A stretch of DNA of 45,739 nt from a virus. The position numbers were made by a program, and so were the translations under genes. Of the stretch, positions 19,055-25,883 are shown in pieces. The notes beneath the pieces are model-generated. The model saw only the letters and a list, made by a program, of their open reading frames with translations, was not told the origin of the DNA and made no database searches. Where the stretch lies: IMG/VR virus record IMGVR_UViG_3300021389_000042, positions 1-45,739 of that record. The stretch is one strand, 5' to 3'. Numbering within the stretch: position 1 is the stretch's first letter; every line of letters starts with the position of its first letter.

Positions 19055-20647
19055 ATGGCAGGATTTAACGACAGAAATGGACCATTGAGCAATGGATCAA
19101 GACCTTTTAGCATTTCAAATGCTCTAAAGTCATTGTCTTCGTTTGGTATGCGCTATGATGATTTAGTCCTAAGACAATCACAAGCAATTGGACCAATGGA
19201 AGCCGAAATAGGTTATGGTCAAATGAACCCGTTTGGTGTAGACTCAGATGACATTTATGGAGCATTCGCTGCAATGTCAATGACAGATACCAATATGAGA
19301 TCAAACATTCCATTTTTCGATCAATCATATGAAGGTAAAAGAGAAGAGCTTAGAAGATTTTCACTCAATGATGAAGTAGAAGATATTTTAGATATTCTGT
19401 GTGATGAGACCATTGTATATGATGAGAAAAACTTTTTCTGTTATCCTGAAATTCTAGGTATTGATATTTCAGAGCAGGTAGACAAAGATCTTAATAAATA
19501 CTTTAGACAAATCTATCACTATTTTGGTTTTAATTCTGATCAATCCGCATGGTACTTCTTTAGAAAATTCCTAATCGATGGTTATCTTGCATTTGAAATA
19601 ATTTATTCCCCCGACCAAAAAGAAATTATTGGTTTTAAAGAATTAGATCCAATCACACTTATTCCTGGTTACAATCACGATGATGGTAAAAAAGTTTGGG
19701 TACAATACAAAGATGATCCAGTTAAAGAGCGTAAACTTTACGATTCACAGATTATCTATATTTCGTACTCTTCAATTACTACAGCATCAAGAGTTTCATA
19801 TATTGAGAGATTAACAAGAGCATTTAACTTGTTAAGAATTATGGAACACACTAGAGTTATTTGGGCTGTAACTAACGCTTCATTTAGAATGAAGTTTGTT
19901 ATCCCAGTCGGTGGTAAATCTAAGACCAGAGCAAAACAATCACTTTCACAGTTAATGAACTCATATAAAGAGTCAGTTGATTTTGATTGGGAATCAGGTA
20001 CTTTGGCTACAGATGGTAAACCAATGTTACAGTTTAGTAAAGAGTATTGGTTACCTTCTAAAGATGGTGATTCACCAGAAATTGAAACACTTAATAGTGA
20101 AGGACCAGATCTATCAGATACAGAAGCACTTAAATACTTCTCTGATAAATTAAAGCACGTTTCAAAAATTCCTTATTCAAGATTCTTATACGAGGACGGT
20201 GGAGGTGACTTTAACCTTGCGGCAGATGGTATGATTAGAGATGAGATTAAGTTTGGTAAATTTATCAAGCGTTTAAGATCTATCTTTATGGAAATTTTAT
20301 CTAAGCCACTTTATATTCAAATGTGTCTTAAATATCCTGATTTTACAAATGATCCTCAATTTAAAACTCAAATTGCACTTAGATTCAATGAAGAAAATGT
20401 CTTCTCAGAATTGAAAGATATGGAATTAATGGAGAAGAGACTTGACTTTATAGGTACAATGAGAGATAGCCTAATGACAACTAATCAGGAGACTATGGAA
20501 GAAGAATATTACTTCGATCAAGAGTACTTAGTTAAGAAATATCTTAAATTAAGTGACGATGAGATTAGAGCTAATGAAGCATTTAAATCTAAGTTAAAGA
20601 AGAAGACTGCTGAAGAGCCAGAGGCTGAAGATCCATTCGCAATGTAA
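19055..20647 (+). CDS. 20: portal protein gp20
   Basis: This 530-residue protein is the dodecameric portal at the capsid vertex through which DNA is packaged and to which the tail attaches. Recognisable segments: FSLNDEVEDILDILCDETIV near residue 105, FRKFLIDGYLAFEIIYSP near 175, ELDPITLIPGYN near 205, and the conserved stem region SKIPYSRFLYEDGGG followed by EIKFGKFIKRLR. Length and motif order fit T4 gp20 (524). It is followed by the core protein and protease genes, conserving the T4 order 20-67/68-21-22-23. Confidence 0.95.
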   Translation: MAGFNDRNGPLSNGSRPFSISNALKSLSSFGMRYDDLVLRQSQAIGPMEAEIGYGQMNPFGVDSDDIYGAFAAMSMTDTNMRSNIPFFDQSYEGKREELRRFSLNDEVEDILDILCDETIVYDEKNFFCYPEILGIDISEQVDKDLNKYFRQIYHYFGFNSDQSAWYFFRKFLIDGYLAFEIIYSPDQKEIIGFKELDPITLIPGYNHDDGKKVWVQYKDDPVKERKLYDSQIIYISYSSITTASRVSYIERLTRAFNLLRIMEHTRVIWAVTNASFRMKFVIPVGGKSKTRAKQSLSQLMNSYKESVDFDWESGTLATDGKPMLQFSKEYWLPSKDGDSPEIETLNSEGPDLSDTEALKYFSDKLKHVSKIPYSRFLYEDGGGDFNLAADGMIRDEIKFGKFIKRLRSIFMEILSKPLYIQMCLKYPDFTNDPQFKTQIALRFNEENVFSELKDMELMEKRLDFIGTMRDSLMTTNQETMEEEYYFDQEYLVKKYLKLSDDEIRANEAFKSKLKKKTAEEPEAEDPFAM

Positions 20648-20675: not shown

Positions 20676-21014
20676 ATGAAAATTATTAAAACATTTGAAG
20701 ACTTTATCTCTGAAGAAGCACTAAGAGCTGGTGAAGATTCTAAAGTAATTATCGACGATATCACTTTGGATTCAGGTTCAACTATTAAAGCTGCTGAAAT
20801 TTTAGGTGCCATTACAGCATCTATGACTGATGAAGAGTTTAAGCAATATTTCTATGACAATTACGGAGAAGCTGCCTTTGGAGAAGGTGAGATAGATCAA
20901 TTAGTAAAGATCTATAACGATAAGCAAACTGAAGATTTAGAGGCTGAAAAAGAGGCTGAAAAAGATGAAGAAGAAGGCGCAGAAGGCGGCGATGATCCTC
21001 TGGCTGGAATGTAA
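20676..21014 (+). CDS. prohead core protein (positional gp67/gp68)
   Basis: This 112-residue, very acidic protein lies between portal and protease, exactly where T4 has core genes 67 and 68. The N-terminus MKIIKTFEDFISEE resembles the T4 capsid-targeting sequence of internal proteins (MKTYQEFIAE type), which gp21 cleaves after (L/I)-x-E-like sites. The C-terminal half is an acidic tail (EKDEEEGAEGGDDPLAGM). It probably forms part of the internal scaffold core and is degraded or trimmed on maturation. The homology to gp67/68 is by position and composition, not sequence. Confidence 0.65.
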   Translation: MKIIKTFEDFISEEALRAGEDSKVIIDDITLDSGSTIKAAEILGAITASMTDEEFKQYFYDNYGEAAFGEGEIDQLVKIYNDKQTEDLEAEKEAEKDEEEGAEGGDDPLAGM

Positions 21015-21038: not shown

Positions 21039-21051
21039 GATATATATTAAA
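21039..21051 (+). promoter_or_regulatory. late promoter motif GATATATATTAAA
   Basis: Variant of the recurring element, 19 bases before the protease-scaffold gene. Confidence 0.4.
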
Positions 21052-21070: not shown

Positions 21071-23185
21071 ATGAATAATATTAACGATTTATTAATCGTC
21101 GAGATGTCTTCATCCGCTCTGAATGTTACTACATCAGAGAATAAAGATTATATTCTAGAAGGTGTTTTTGGTCAAATTGATCAAAAAAATAGAAACAATC
21201 GTATCTATACCGAATCTGAATATGTTCCTCAAATTGAAGCATTACAGGCAAAAATTGGAGCTAGCAAATTATTGGGTGAATTAGATCACCCTGCGCAGTT
21301 CGACATTTCTTTAAAGAATGTATCGCATATCATTGAAGAACTAACTTACGACAAAGAGAGTAAAGAAGTAAGAGGACGTATCAAATTATTAGATACTGAT
21401 GCTGGTCGTCAAGCTAAGGCTTTAGTAGATGCTGGTGTTCCTTTACAAATTTCATCTAGAGCAGCGGGTGCCGTAGAATCTAATGGACAAGTGAAGATCA
21501 AACAATTATTTACGTATGATCTAGTCGCTGATCCAGGTTTTGAAAACGCTGAACTAAAAAGAGTTAACGAATCTTATGGTTACGACAATGATGGTTTATT
21601 GTCTATTTATGAGATTAATAAAACAAACTCTAATGAAGAAAACATTGAAAATCAAAATACAAACATAGAAATAAAAGAAAATAAAAACATGGCAGAATTT
21701 GTAAAATCTGAGGATTTCAATAAGTACTCTGAGTATTTAGCGAATGAAATCAAGACATTAAAGGAGTCTATTGAAGCTAAAGATGCTGAAGTTTCTGAAG
21801 ACAACTCATTAGAAAATCTAAAAGAACACAATGATCATATTGTAGAAAATGTTAATAAATTAACTAACTACGTTGAGTATGTTGCTGGTAAATTAGATGA
21901 ATCTATCCAATACACAGAGCACGTTGCTGAAAAAGCAGATCAAGGTATCTCTTATTCTGAGTCTTTGGCTGAGAAATTAGATCAAGGTATCTCTTATACA
22001 GAACACGTTGCTGAAGCAGTTTCTAAAGTTAAAGATTTCGCTAACTATTTAGCTGAAGCACATAACGAAGGAGCTACATCACATACAACTTTATTAGAGT
22101 ATGTTGAATACCTAAAAGAAAACTTACAATCAGTTTCTGAATATGCTGAATACATTGCAGAATCTTTAAACGAAGAAGTTGAATCTGAAGAAGTTGAAGT
22201 TGAAGTTAACGTTGAAGCTGAAGAAGAAAAAGAAGAAGACGTCGAAGCTGCTGATAAAGTAGAAGGCGAAGAAGCTGCAGAAGTAGTAGTTGAAGAAGAA
22301 GGTGAAGAAGTTGAAGAAGCTGAAGAAGTTGAAGAAGCTGAAGATCCTGCTAAAGAAGCTGACGAAGCTGAAGAAACTGAAGAAATCGAAAACATTGGAG
22401 ATAATTCAGAAGAAGGTGCAGTTGCTGCAGATAGCGATGAAGCTGGTAAAGAAGTTGAAGAAATCGAAGGTGAAGAAGTTGAAGCTGGAGATAATTCAGA
22501 AGAAGGCGATGTCGAAGGTGAAGAAGCTGGTGAAGAAGCAGAAGATTTAGAATCTGATGCAGTAACTTCAGATTCAGAAGTAGAAGATGAGGTTGATGCG
22601 GCTGAAGCTGGTGAATCAGACGAAGAAGCAGAAGGCGAAGATGGAGCACATGATCCATTAGAAGCTTATAAATCAGAAATCTCTTCTAAATTAGACGCTT
22701 TAGTTGAAAGTGCAACAAGAAAAGAAAATGAATCTCCATCTTTCTTTAGAGTTGTTTCTTCTGCAACTAGAGAAAAATACAACACATTAAACGAAGCTGC
22801 TAAAACTGAAGTTAGAAATACTGTTTCTAAAAGAGGTTTCATGACAGAATCTGAAATAGTATCATTAATGAATAGCGCACAACTAATTGTAGAGAGCGTA
22901 GGTGAACAACCATTCTTTATTAGTGCAATGCCAGCAGAATATACTGAAGCATGGGCAAACTTATCAGAAGCTAAGCAGACTCAAATTATTGCTCAATCTA
23001 AATATCATACATTGAATACAGAATATCAAGTTGCTAATTTCTGGCAAACTAGAGACCTAAGAGATACTTCAGTTGTAATGGAAAAAGTAGCAATGGTTAC
23101 AGAATCTAAAGAAGAAGCTAAATCTACATTAGGATATGACGTATCAGATATGGCAGACGCATTCAAAAAGAGATTTAACAAATAA
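21071..23185 (+). CDS. 21-22: fused prohead protease (gp21) and scaffold (gp22)
   Basis: This 704-residue protein joins two functions that T4 encodes separately. Residues 1-185 are the gp21-type prohead protease with a herpesvirus-protease-like active site: His73 in LGELDHPAQ, Ser128/129 in LQISSRAAG and Asp154 in YDLVADPGFE. Residues 186-206 are an Asn/Glu-rich join that looks like a translated intergenic leader. From Met207 (ATG at 21689, preceded by AAATAAAAAC) the rest is scaffold-like: 14-residue helical repeats (267-370), an acidic low-complexity segment (368-527), and a helical C-terminal domain (528-704) ending FKKRFNK, like T4 gp22. Met207 may act as a nested start giving free scaffold, as in lambda C/Nu3. 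The reading frame is open throughout. Confidence 0.88.
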   Translation: MNNINDLLIVEMSSSALNVTTSENKDYILEGVFGQIDQKNRNNRIYTESEYVPQIEALQAKIGASKLLGELDHPAQFDISLKNVSHIIEELTYDKESKEVRGRIKLLDTDAGRQAKALVDAGVPLQISSRAAGAVESNGQVKIKQLFTYDLVADPGFENAELKRVNESYGYDNDGLLSIYEINKTNSNEENIENQNTNIEIKENKNMAEFVKSEDFNKYSEYLANEIKTLKESIEAKDAEVSEDNSLENLKEHNDHIVENVNKLTNYVEYVAGKLDESIQYTEHVAEKADQGISYSESLAEKLDQGISYTEHVAEAVSKVKDFANYLAEAHNEGATSHTTLLEYVEYLKENLQSVSEYAEYIAESLNEEVESEEVEVEVNVEAEEEKEEDVEAADKVEGEEAAEVVVEEEGEEVEEAEEVEEAEDPAKEADEAEETEEIENIGDNSEEGAVAADSDEAGKEVEEIEGEEVEAGDNSEEGDVEGEEAGEEAEDLESDAVTSDSEVEDEVDAAEAGESDEEAEGEDGAHDPLEAYKSEISSKLDALVESATRKENESPSFFRVVSSATREKYNTLNEAAKTEVRNTVSKRGFMTESEIVSLMNSAQLIVESVGEQPFFISAMPAEYTEAWANLSEAKQTQIIAQSKYHTLNTEYQVANFWQTRDLRDTSVVMEKVAMVTESKEEAKSTLGYDVSDMADAFKKRFNK
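21869..22183 (+). repeat. 42-base repeats encoding 14-residue coiled-coil units in scaffold
   Basis: Successive units begin YVEYVAGKLDESIQ, YTEHVAEKADQGIS, YSESLAEKLDQGIS, YTEHVAEAVSKVKD and FANYLAEAHNEGAT, then a 21-residue unit and YAEYIAESLNEEVE. The period of 14 residues equals two heptads, so hydrophobic faces stay in register. The GATCAAGGTATCTCTTAT stretch is repeated almost exactly. Confidence 0.8.
22172..22651 (+). repeat. purine-rich GAAGAA low-complexity region (acidic segment)
   Basis: About 160 codons of mainly Glu, Val, Ala and Asp, written largely in GAA GAA GTT GAA and GAA GCT GAA units. It lies within the scaffold gene. The plus strand is strongly purine-rich. It is prone to slippage and shares words with the acidic region at 25660-25825. 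Confidence 0.8.
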
Positions 23186-23307: not shown

Positions 23308-24678
23308 ATGGCAAATTTATTAAACGAAGCTGAGATCAAGAATACATGGGCACCGATTATCTCGGAAGCTACAGGTATCAACGAATCTAGCAAATTAGCG
23401 TGGATGTCGACTTACTGTCACAACCACAAACTTTACGAAGACGCGAACATCATGTCTTTATCTAACAACCCTGGCCCAATGAACTTAACAGGTATGGGTG
23501 CAGTATCTTTCCCTGCAGGTGCTCCGGCTAACGGTGCAGCAGGTGCAGCTACTGGTTCAGGTGACAAAGCACCAACATTATTGCCTTTGGCAATGCAAGT
23601 TGCTGCTCAAACTATCGGTCTTGACTTGGTACCAGTTGTACCTATGGCAGGTCCTATGGGCTTATTGTCTTACTTAGACTTTACTTACGAAGGTGGTACT
23701 GTTGCATTAGGTGCAACTGCTCCTACTTACATCAAGTCTGATTTAGCTGCAGCTGGTGCTGACGTATTAGTTGGTACTTCAAGAATTGATGGTAAAAACA
23801 TCATCAAAATCGTTGACGCTATCACTGAAGCTGAAGCTAACGTTGCAGGTAGATACGCTGACGCTGTATTGGTTGCTGCATTAGAAGATCATATCCCAGG
23901 ATTCTCTGGTGCTGACGCTAATGGTAAGCCAATGTCAAGAGAAGTTGGTGAAAGAACTGCTGATAAAGTAATGGGTCTTTCTTTATTCTCTAAATCAGTT
24001 GCTGCTGAAACTTTCCAAGTTGCTGCTGCAGTTACTAGAGAGCAAGTACAAGATCTTAAGCAATTCGGTGTTGACGCAGTAGCTCAAGTTGAGGCTGTAT
24101 TAACTAACGAATTGACTCAGTCAATCAACAACCACATCTTAGCTAAGATGAGAGATATCGCTGAAGAAGGTATCGGTACAGTTGCACTACAATACGGTGA
24201 CGGTGGTAACACTTACGGCGATGTTAACAGAAGAGTCTTAACTAACATTCTTGCTGCTGCGAACTTAATCGCAAACAGAGGTAGAAGAGGTGCTGGTAAC
24301 TTCGCAGTTGTTGGAGCAAAAGTTGCTTCTGCATTGCAATCAGTTGCTGGTTTCGTACCAAACCCAATGGCTAACACTTTCAACCAAGTTGCAGGTGCTA
24401 TCTACCCATTAGGTTCTGTTGCGGGTATCAACATCTACACTGATCCTAACTTAGAGTGGGAAGGTGCTACACAACAAGTATTAGTTGGTAGAAAAGGTGA
24501 TGGTAACGGTGCTGGATTAGTATTCATGCCTTACTTAATGGCTGAATCAGTTCAAATGATCGCTGAAGGAACTATGGCTCCTAAAGTAGCGGTTAAATCT
24601 AGATACGCTCTAGTTGAAGCTGGTTTCCACCCAGGTACTCAATACCAAAAATTCACAGTTTCAGGTTTACAACTATAA
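23308..24678 (+). CDS. 23: major capsid protein gp23
   Basis: This is a 456-residue HK97-fold shell protein of the T4 type. The N-terminal region (NLLNEAEIKNTWAPIISE) resembles the gp23 opening, and protease sites of (L/I)-x-E type are visible, for instance after KLYE near residue 44, so a short N-terminal peptide is probably removed by the protease domain of the upstream gene. Conserved core segments include MGLLSYLDFTYEGG, YADAVLVAALEDH, VTREQVQDLKQFGVDA and VGRKGDGNGAGLVFMPY. It is shorter than T4 gp23 (521). Codons here are richer in C-ending forms (AAC, TAC, GGT) than neighbours, as expected of a highly expressed gene. A terminator follows. Confidence 0.96.
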   Translation: MANLLNEAEIKNTWAPIISEATGINESSKLAWMSTYCHNHKLYEDANIMSLSNNPGPMNLTGMGAVSFPAGAPANGAAGAATGSGDKAPTLLPLAMQVAAQTIGLDLVPVVPMAGPMGLLSYLDFTYEGGTVALGATAPTYIKSDLAAAGADVLVGTSRIDGKNIIKIVDAITEAEANVAGRYADAVLVAALEDHIPGFSGADANGKPMSREVGERTADKVMGLSLFSKSVAAETFQVAAAVTREQVQDLKQFGVDAVAQVEAVLTNELTQSINNHILAKMRDIAEEGIGTVALQYGDGGNTYGDVNRRVLTNILAAANLIANRGRRGAGNFAVVGAKVASALQSVAGFVPNPMANTFNQVAGAIYPLGSVAGINIYTDPNLEWEGATQQVLVGRKGDGNGAGLVFMPYLMAESVQMIAEGTMAPKVAVKSRYALVEAGFHPGTQYQKFTVSGLQL

Positions 24679-24806: not shown

Positions 24807-25883
24807 ATGAAATTAAAATCTAAATTAAAACTTTACGAAGAATTCGTAAATGAATCTAAAGAGTCTATCGATAGTGTATCGGTTGATCAAGTAACAGTAG
24901 ATGCTACCAATGCATCTGATGCTATTAGAACAGAAGTAATCAGAGATGTAGATACTATACTAGATACATTGGCAGAATTATCAGATAGAATCGGAGAATC
25001 TGCTTCTATCGATTTAGAAATAGACGAACTATATGAAGAGTTGTTTGACTTAACAAATGTTTCAGAACTTAATGAAGGTATATTAGATTTTATTAAGAGT
25101 CCTATTAAATTCATGAAGATTAAGAAAAATCTTAAAGCATATCAAAAGGCTCTAGTACAAAAGGCCATTAACGATGTCGATTTCGCTAAGAAGAAACAAG
25201 CCGGAGACGCTGACGAGAAAGATAAAAAGAGAATGGAAACTTTGAAACAAGCTAATCAAGCTAAAAACAAAGCGTTAGATGATCAATTAGCTGCTATTTC
25301 AGAGAGAATGACAGAATTGTCAAAAGGAGATGAAGGCTTAGGTAAAGTAGTTTCTATCGGAAAAACTAAATCTAAATTAGCTGCGGCTCAAATAGTAATG
25401 AAAGCAACTTCAGGTGAAGAGGCAAAACAACTTAAATTAGAAATCGACACTTTATCAGATAGAATCGCAGACGATGAAAAGTCTCTTAAAGATTACGCTA
25501 AAAAACAAGCGGACAATAAACCAGACGATACTCAAACAGCTAACGATGAAGAGGGTGAAGAAACTAGCCGAAAACAAATGGCAGATATAGGCAATGATGC
25601 TAAAGGTTATAATGAAAACGCAGAATTAGACGGTTCAGGTAGACTTTCATCGGTAATTAATGAAGAAACTGAAGAAGAGACTGAAGAAGAGAATGAAGTT
25701 GAAATCGAAGTTAAAGGTGATGTTGACGTAGAAGTTAAACATCAAGAAACTGAAGAAGTTGAAGATGAAGAAGTTGAAACTGAAGAAACTGAAGAAGTTG
25801 AAGCTGAAGAAGTTGAAGAATCTAACAAGCCTAGATTATACGAAGGTATGTCAATCGCTGAAAGATTTAAAGCTTTAATGTAA
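24807..25883 (+). CDS. probable capsid internal protein with targeting sequence
   Basis: This 358-residue protein begins MKLKSKLKLYEEFVNESKE, strongly like the capsid-targeting sequence of T4 internal proteins (MKTYQEFIAE), where the prohead protease cuts. The middle is a charged helical domain (residues 90-240). The C-terminal third is a Glu/Val low-complexity stretch very like the acidic segment of the scaffold, ending YEGMSIAERFKALM. It lies between two terminators under its own late motif, in the position of T4 gene 24, but is not recognisable as vertex protein. It is probably a core or injected internal protein (inference). Confidence 0.6.
   Translation: MKLKSKLKLYEEFVNESKESIDSVSVDQVTVDATNASDAIRTEVIRDVDTILDTLAELSDRIGESASIDLEIDELYEELFDLTNVSELNEGILDFIKSPIKFMKIKKNLKAYQKALVQKAINDVDFAKKKQAGDADEKDKKRMETLKQANQAKNKALDDQLAAISERMTELSKGDEGLGKVVSIGKTKSKLAAAQIVMKATSGEEAKQLKLEIDTLSDRIADDEKSLKDYAKKQADNKPDDTQTANDEEGEETSRKQMADIGNDAKGYNENAELDGSGRLSSVINEETEEETEEENEVEIEVKGDVDVEVKHQETEEVEDEEVETEETEEVEAEEVEESNKPRLYEGMSIAERFKALM

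Follow-up and report, generated by a model that had tools for sequence, protein, structure and literature searches.

A T4-type prohead protease joined to a likely scaffold in one gene, with a predicted nested start for free scaffold, across a clade that includes megaphages

The gene at 21071-23185 of the window, i.e. the whole 45,739-base virus record that was analysed (32.7% GC, with a T4-type head and tail gene block), joins a prohead protease of the T4 gp21 type to a scaffold-like part in one open reading frame. We consider it likely that this one gene gives rise to two head-core proteins with a common C-terminus: a fusion that would tether the protease in the core and release it by autocleavage, and a scaffold made from a nested start. 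Sequence comparison supports the fusion, its conservation across the clade, selection on the nested start, and a conserved motif at the junction. The nested protease/scaffold plan is already known from UL26/UL26.5 of herpesviruses (PMC12474303), C/Nu3 of lambda (PMC8508860), and Mu (PMC4378225); what appears new is to find it in T4-type phages of the S77 lineage, throughout a clade and with a putative nested start that lacks a Shine-Dalgarno (SD) site.

The fused gene and its surroundings

The head genes of the window follow the same order as in T4 (portal, small core proteins, protease, scaffold, capsid).

19055-20647 (+): portal, gp20-like (Pfam Portal_T4, 1e-73)
20676-21014 (+): small acidic protein with N-terminus MKIIKTFEDFISE, in the gp67/68 position (assigned from position only)
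21039-21047 (+): GATATATAT, a late-promoter-like box upstream of the fused gene (from the intergenic TATATA density)
21071-23185 (+): fused prohead protease-scaffold frame, 704 residues, single and uninterrupted
21071-21613 (+): protease domain of the S77 (T4 gp21) type, residues 1-181, with His73, Ser128 (or 129), and Asp150 (Pfam, PHROG, and PDB sequence and fold matches)
23308-24678 (+): major capsid protein, gp23-like (Gp23, 2e-45), with I/L-x-E sites in the N-terminus

In the clade of the window, TATATA occurs 7.4 times per kb in the short intergenic gaps versus 0.13 times per kb in the fused frame, a difference of about 55-fold. The box GATATATAA, found typically about 34 nt 5' of the ATG of many window genes (e.g. 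14261, 16286, 20676, 21071, 35273, and 38155), is probably a late promoter. The N-termini MKIIKTFEDFISE (20676-21014) and MKLKSKLKLYEEFVNE (24807-25883) resemble the capsid-targeting propeptides of T4 internal proteins, ending in an I/L-x-E site. We also observe that the C-terminus of the 24807-25883 product, SIAERFKALM, resembles AIMERFKSI, the scaffold end in the LR745206 clade.

The N-terminal part of the fused protein matches Peptidase_S77 (1.5e-11, above the Pfam cut-off) and the head maturation protease family phrog_207 (1.6e-44), and hhalign pairs the domain with T4 gp21 at 96%. Its AlphaFold2 model matches T4 gp21 (5jbl) in Foldseek with an E value of 2e-10 and a TM score of 0.78, and the VZV protease as a weak fold match (E 0.06). 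These matches bear out the gp21-type catalytic domain of the original prediction, which had been made from this sequence without database searches. The phrog_207 profile has 519 positions and its match extends into the scaffold part of the fused frame, so this family probably already includes fused proteins, unremarked.

Residues H73, S128, S129, and D150 are invariant in 45 sequences and align with H85, S140/S141, and D168 of T4, more specifically His73 with H85 and S128 with S140. The His and Ser proposed for the catalytic triad therefore stand; the proposed Asp154 is only nearly invariant, and D150 seems better placed as the catalytic Asp. In 5jbl, Ala is found at the positions of H85 and S140, which look mutated in the crystal construct. 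One relative (L270, LR756508.1) has an intein-like insert that interrupts the protease in frame after GELDHPD.

The C-terminal part, residues 207-704, is acidic (pI 4.05) with 22.5% Glu, and comprises the following features.

21689-23185 (+): predicted free scaffold from the nested start, 498 residues, 55 kDa, pI 4.05
21881-22015 (+): 42-nt tandem repeat, encoding 14-residue YxExxAExxDxxI units with I/L/V-A-E motifs
22172-22640 (+): Glu-rich low-complexity segment, almost without L/I-x-E sites
22613-23182 (+): conserved all-helical C-terminal region ending in AFKKRFNK (alignment; AlphaFold2 pLDDT 76, pTM 0.40)

We infer that this part is a scaffold from its place, its composition, and its fusion to the protease. 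It resembles the T4 gp22 scaffold family (phrog_237) in being acidic and helical and in lying between the protease and the major capsid gene. The "gp22-like" label given to it earlier agrees with position and composition, with no homology detected in the sequence: hhalign against T4 gp22 gives a probability of 0.5%, no phrog_237 or Pfam match is found, and we rejected gp22 homology on these profile comparisons and searches. In the annotated phage collection, the first 165 residues of this part match solely fused marine megaphage records, with no stand-alone gene among the matches. The weld to the protease is what identifies a likely scaffold, in a clade with some of the largest known phages.

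The I/L-x-E motif, the type of site cleaved by T4 gp21, occurs 10 times in the repeat part of the window where 4.3 are expected, and is enriched 2-3 fold over shuffles in the scaffolds tested, including six relatives; the acidic segment of the window shows no such excess over shuffles. In megaphages of 630-735 kb (L083-L086), the scaffolds contain a dozen or so 14-residue repeats, YSEYIAENLDKNI, nearly each of which has an I/L-A-E motif, as if made for dicing by the protease.

Conservation of the fused frame among relatives

The frame is fused in all 254 untruncated clade sequences from our IMG/VR and phage-record scans, a count which requires the frame to continue for more than 120 codons and which includes the window and many near copies. 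A stop between the domains, for which a comparison of relatives had been proposed, is found in none of them; together with the uninterrupted 704-residue frame, this upholds the view that protease and scaffold-like part form one gene. The exceptions to fusion in the scans are PA5oct, where protease and scaffold are split, one cyanophage, the distant contig L259, and one Lak record that needs a recoded TAG.

When 34 protease domains are placed in a tree, a single change with a support of 100/100 separates fused from split proteins, the tree having no outgroup, so that fusion and fission are indistinguishable on it and a split ancestor is an assumption. The fused side comprises Lak phages, Tenacibaculum phages PTm1 and pT24, the LR7565xx marine megaphages, and the window, and the named hosts within this clade are Tenacibaculum and Prevotella. 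The split side comprises T4, Ackermannviridae, cyanophages, and Campylobacter, Vibrio, and Pseudomonas jumbo phages. Because all relatives across the broad clade carry the fusion, without any split intermediate observed among them, the joining (or the splitting, under another root) appears to be one old event. The loss of a stop codon in this phage, suggested by the original prediction as the origin of the fusion, was rejected as a recent event, the fusion being clade-wide and corresponding to one change on the tree.

It is hardly conceivable that the joined frame results from an error of assembly or sequencing that hides a stop. One relative, L005, does contain a misjoined frame in acidic repeats, but hundreds of contigs from many samples agree on the joined frame. 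In L005 (5001-6400), the scaffold is joined to the C-terminus of the post-capsid gene (453 residues, ending in AERFKALM) and the capsid gene is skipped, which is probably a misassembly across the acidic repeats.

Constraint and start context at the nested ATG

Scaffold alone is very probably produced as well, from a second start within the gene, as suggested by a synonymous minimum, the start context, and a conserved Met at the domain border. This strong comparative evidence favours the nested start originally proposed at 21689.

21614-21688 (+): Asn/Glu/Lys-rich linker, residues 182-206, variable in length and sequence among relatives
21665-21688 (+): A-rich unstructured leader of the nested start, ATAGAAATAAAAGAAAATAAAAAC, marked by the synonymous minimum and the start context, without stable fold
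21689-21691 (+): nested ATG, residue 207, which is ATG in 30 of 30 non-redundant near relatives

The join had been described as A-rich with Asn/Glu/Lys-rich residues, and residues 182-206, which are unstructured, fit this description. Pairwise comparison of the 30 non-redundant near relatives gives 120 synonymous differences at codons 201-209 versus 1005 expected, i.e. 0.119 of expectation, a value matched in 4 of 20,000 column shuffles and the lowest of any synonymous window across the fused, portal, and capsid genes. Of the windows at a distance of more than 15 codons from it, the lowest reaches 0.43; the minima of the other genes are 0.24 (capsid) and 0.50 (portal), and the region around the start of the capsid gene, taken as a positive control, gives 0.28. 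Ile201 is encoded by ATA in 29 of 29 sequences, although the portal and capsid genes use this codon for a minority of their Ile residues; Asn206 is encoded by AAC in 28 of 30, and codon variation is normal from codon 212 onward. In the independent L116-like clade, the synonymous minimum (0.31, reached in 1 of 20,000 shuffles) lies directly before that clade's own nested Met. The second lowest value in the three genes tested, 0.24, belongs to codons 231-240 of the capsid gene (23308-24678).

Conservation of the border Met and leader merely as protein sequence is highly improbable. The residues I-K-E-N-K-N-M are indeed kept in most close relatives, but codon conservation goes far beyond what the amino acids require, and other clades change the linker and the Met spacing yet keep a Met.

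Upstream of ATG 21689, A occupies 16 of 20 positions. Scored with a matrix derived from the context of 37 gene starts, this ATG reaches 6.02 bits, compared to 3.71 for the gene's own start at 21071 and 5.88 for the capsid gene, and it ranks first among the 866 internal ATGs in the window, in agreement with the leader style noticed earlier before other genes. The A-rich upstream region and the top rank make it more than a chance ATG. SD-like sites precede 1 of the 37 genes. Initiation that is SD-less and A-dependent is described for Bacteroidota, and the A at -3, -6, and -13 of 21689 fits this pattern (PMC6847099).

A Met lies at the border, at most 12 residues before the scaffold onset, in 87 of 87 distinct sequences, while spacing and linker drift; for most neighbouring 12-residue windows, Met is found in 0-16% of the sequences. 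The more distant L255-L258 also have the border Met, preceded by an A-rich leader. No usable ATG is present at the border in PTm1 and its relative L254, both fused, and no convincing one in pT24, so the nested start is not essential to every fused phage. The fused genes of L089 and L254, with no ATG at the border, form a natural test of the need for a nested start.

The nucleotide selection on the leader could serve something else. The A-rich element might be another DNA or RNA signal, such as an internal late promoter or an RNA control, with scaffold boosted by a separate transcript but still started at 21689, which we consider decidedly unlikely. This reading gains from the LR745206-like clade, where constraint is strongest over 31 nt that could form a hairpin and that contain GGATATAYGA, somewhat like the TATATA boxes before genes. 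In the clade of the window, however, the constraint adjoins the ATG and contains no TATATA box, the leader is unstructured, and a scan with the intergenic TATATA matrix picks an internal site in neither clade. An internal late promoter was rejected for the clade of the window, which lacks the box and is negative in the matrix scan. We found no stable fold of the A-rich leader, and no known RNA family in the window, L085, or L116.

The nested Met itself is invariant in 43 non-redundant LR745206-like sequences; Met184, missing in 5 of the 43, was rejected as their nested start. Their synonymous divergence is lowest (0.29, reached in 0 of 20,000 shuffles) over ACTTTAGGATATATGAAATGTCCGATGAGT, 10-22 codons upstream of this Met; the dip coincides with a possible hairpin and not with the leader, which counts against the nested-start model. 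This stretch can fold as a 10-pair hairpin, with ends that match those of the conserved stretch. The inner helix is paired in all cells, two-sided covariation is absent, and folding of a single sequence gives no clear advantage over shuffles. The 31-nt stretch contains GGATATAYGA about 45 nt before the nested ATG, and ends about 25 nt before it. An internal promoter was considered for this clade because of GGATATATGA, but several sequences read TATACG, the TATATA matrix scan does not select this site, and the constrained stretch coincides with the possible hairpin. The stretch may act in RNA control or be a degenerate promoter of the TATATA type. The potential hairpin occurs, nearly invariant, at L085:5536-5566 and 73 other loci, in one copy per locus, inside the protease-scaffold frame.

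Junction motif, proposed mechanism, and known systems

The junction contains a conserved cleavage motif, overlooked by the original prediction, which would complete the mechanism.

21605-21613 (+): IYE, residues 179-181, putative autocleavage site of the I/L-x-E type at the domain junction

Among the 254 sequences, this motif is IYE in 226, IFE in 13, IYD in 5, and LFE in 1, so that 239 have IYE or IFE where the protease ends. Directly before the nested ATG there is a second motif, IKE203. T4 gp21 cleaves after L/I-x-E (PMC9026906), and a C-terminal autocleavage has been suggested for it (PMC5694885); its sequence has ITE at 185-187, beyond the catalytic Asp, in a place like that of the IYE motif.

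From these features, we infer which proteins are made, in what ratio, and how the protease is tethered and cleaved, as follows. Initiation at 21071 would give the full-length protease-scaffold fusion as a minor form, whereas a separate start at the in-frame ATG 21689, following its A-rich SD-less leader, would give the free scaffold of 498 residues, probably in excess. The fusion would co-assemble with free scaffold, and the protease would in this way be carried covalently into the prohead core. After shell assembly, the protease would cleave itself off at IYE181, possibly also at IKE203, and the released protease would fragment the scaffold at the numerous I/L-x-E sites in it, allowing the scaffold to exit. 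Tethering of the protease at a low ratio, as originally proposed, is a reasonable reading since the nested ATG outscores the full-length start (6.0 versus 3.7 bits). Such a layout would be a simple answer to the entry of a set dose of protease into a T4-type core.

A protease-scaffold fusion without nested product is described for phage P2. A similar arrangement in the window, where all scaffold would come from the full-length protein and be freed by autocleavage alone, appears rather unlikely. PTm1 and L254, fused without border Met, are consistent with it, and the I-x-E motif at the junction could by itself separate both parts, but such an arrangement does not account for the low synonymous divergence of the leader, the top-ranking context of the nested ATG, or the border Met at shifting positions. 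Moreover, T4 has about 576 copies of gp22 versus 100 of gp21 (PMC5694885), numbers for which a separate source of scaffold is wanted and which a pure fusion cannot yield.

The fusion with nested start may extend to the whole T4-type branch of Lak, Tenacibaculum, and marine megaphages, with the gp21 protease as a minor fusion form, an SD-less nested scaffold start, autocleavage at I-x-E, and cis elements specific to each sub-clade; we give this branch-wide reading an even chance. The nested product would then be controlled by an A-rich leader in the window, by a hairpin in LR745206-like phages, and by no element that we could see in PTm1. If true, the herpesvirus UL26/UL26.5 plan would be borne by the T4-type protease, its acknowledged relative.

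In herpesviruses, UL26 likewise combines an N-terminal serine protease and a C-terminal scaffold with self-cleavage between them (R site), and a nested in-frame gene, UL26.5, yields free scaffold with the same sequence as the C-terminal part, about 10% of the scaffold being in the form that bears the protease (PMC12474303); both the cleavage and the free product are predictions in our case. The T4 and herpesvirus proteases have common structural elements and catalytic residues (PMC5694885). Nevertheless, UL26.5 is a separate nested gene of a eukaryotic virus, whereas initiation in the window appears translational, and the window protease matches T4 gp21 (E 2e-10) far better than the VZV protease (E 0.06). 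The window would offer a phage counterpart of the protease-scaffold gene of herpesviruses inside the same protease superfamily, with cultivable relatives.

A scaffold start nested in frame in the protease gene is also found in lambda C/Nu3 (PMC8508860, referring to Shaw and Murialdo 1980) and in Mu and Mu-like phages (PMC4378225). The nested starts of Mu-like phages use Shine-Dalgarno sites (PMC4378225), in contrast to the A-rich leader of the window, and the window protease differs from those of lambda and Mu in belonging to the gp21/S77 family. T4 shares the protease family and gene order, and its gp21 has an internal start of its own (PMC9026906), but its genes 21 and 22 are separate and its scaffold shows no detectable homology to that of the window.

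PTm1, pT24, Lak, LR756500-LR756504, and LR745206 have the fused frame and belong to the same clade as the window; PTm1 differs in having no border ATG, and Lak in the recoded TAG of some members. In the open literature searched, we found no prior account of a gp21-type protease-scaffold fusion with nested start. For annotation, our results predict a missing gene product in hundreds of genomes. The PTm1 annotation "prohead core scaffolding protein and protease" is also given to split gp21 genes and is not diagnostic of fusion.
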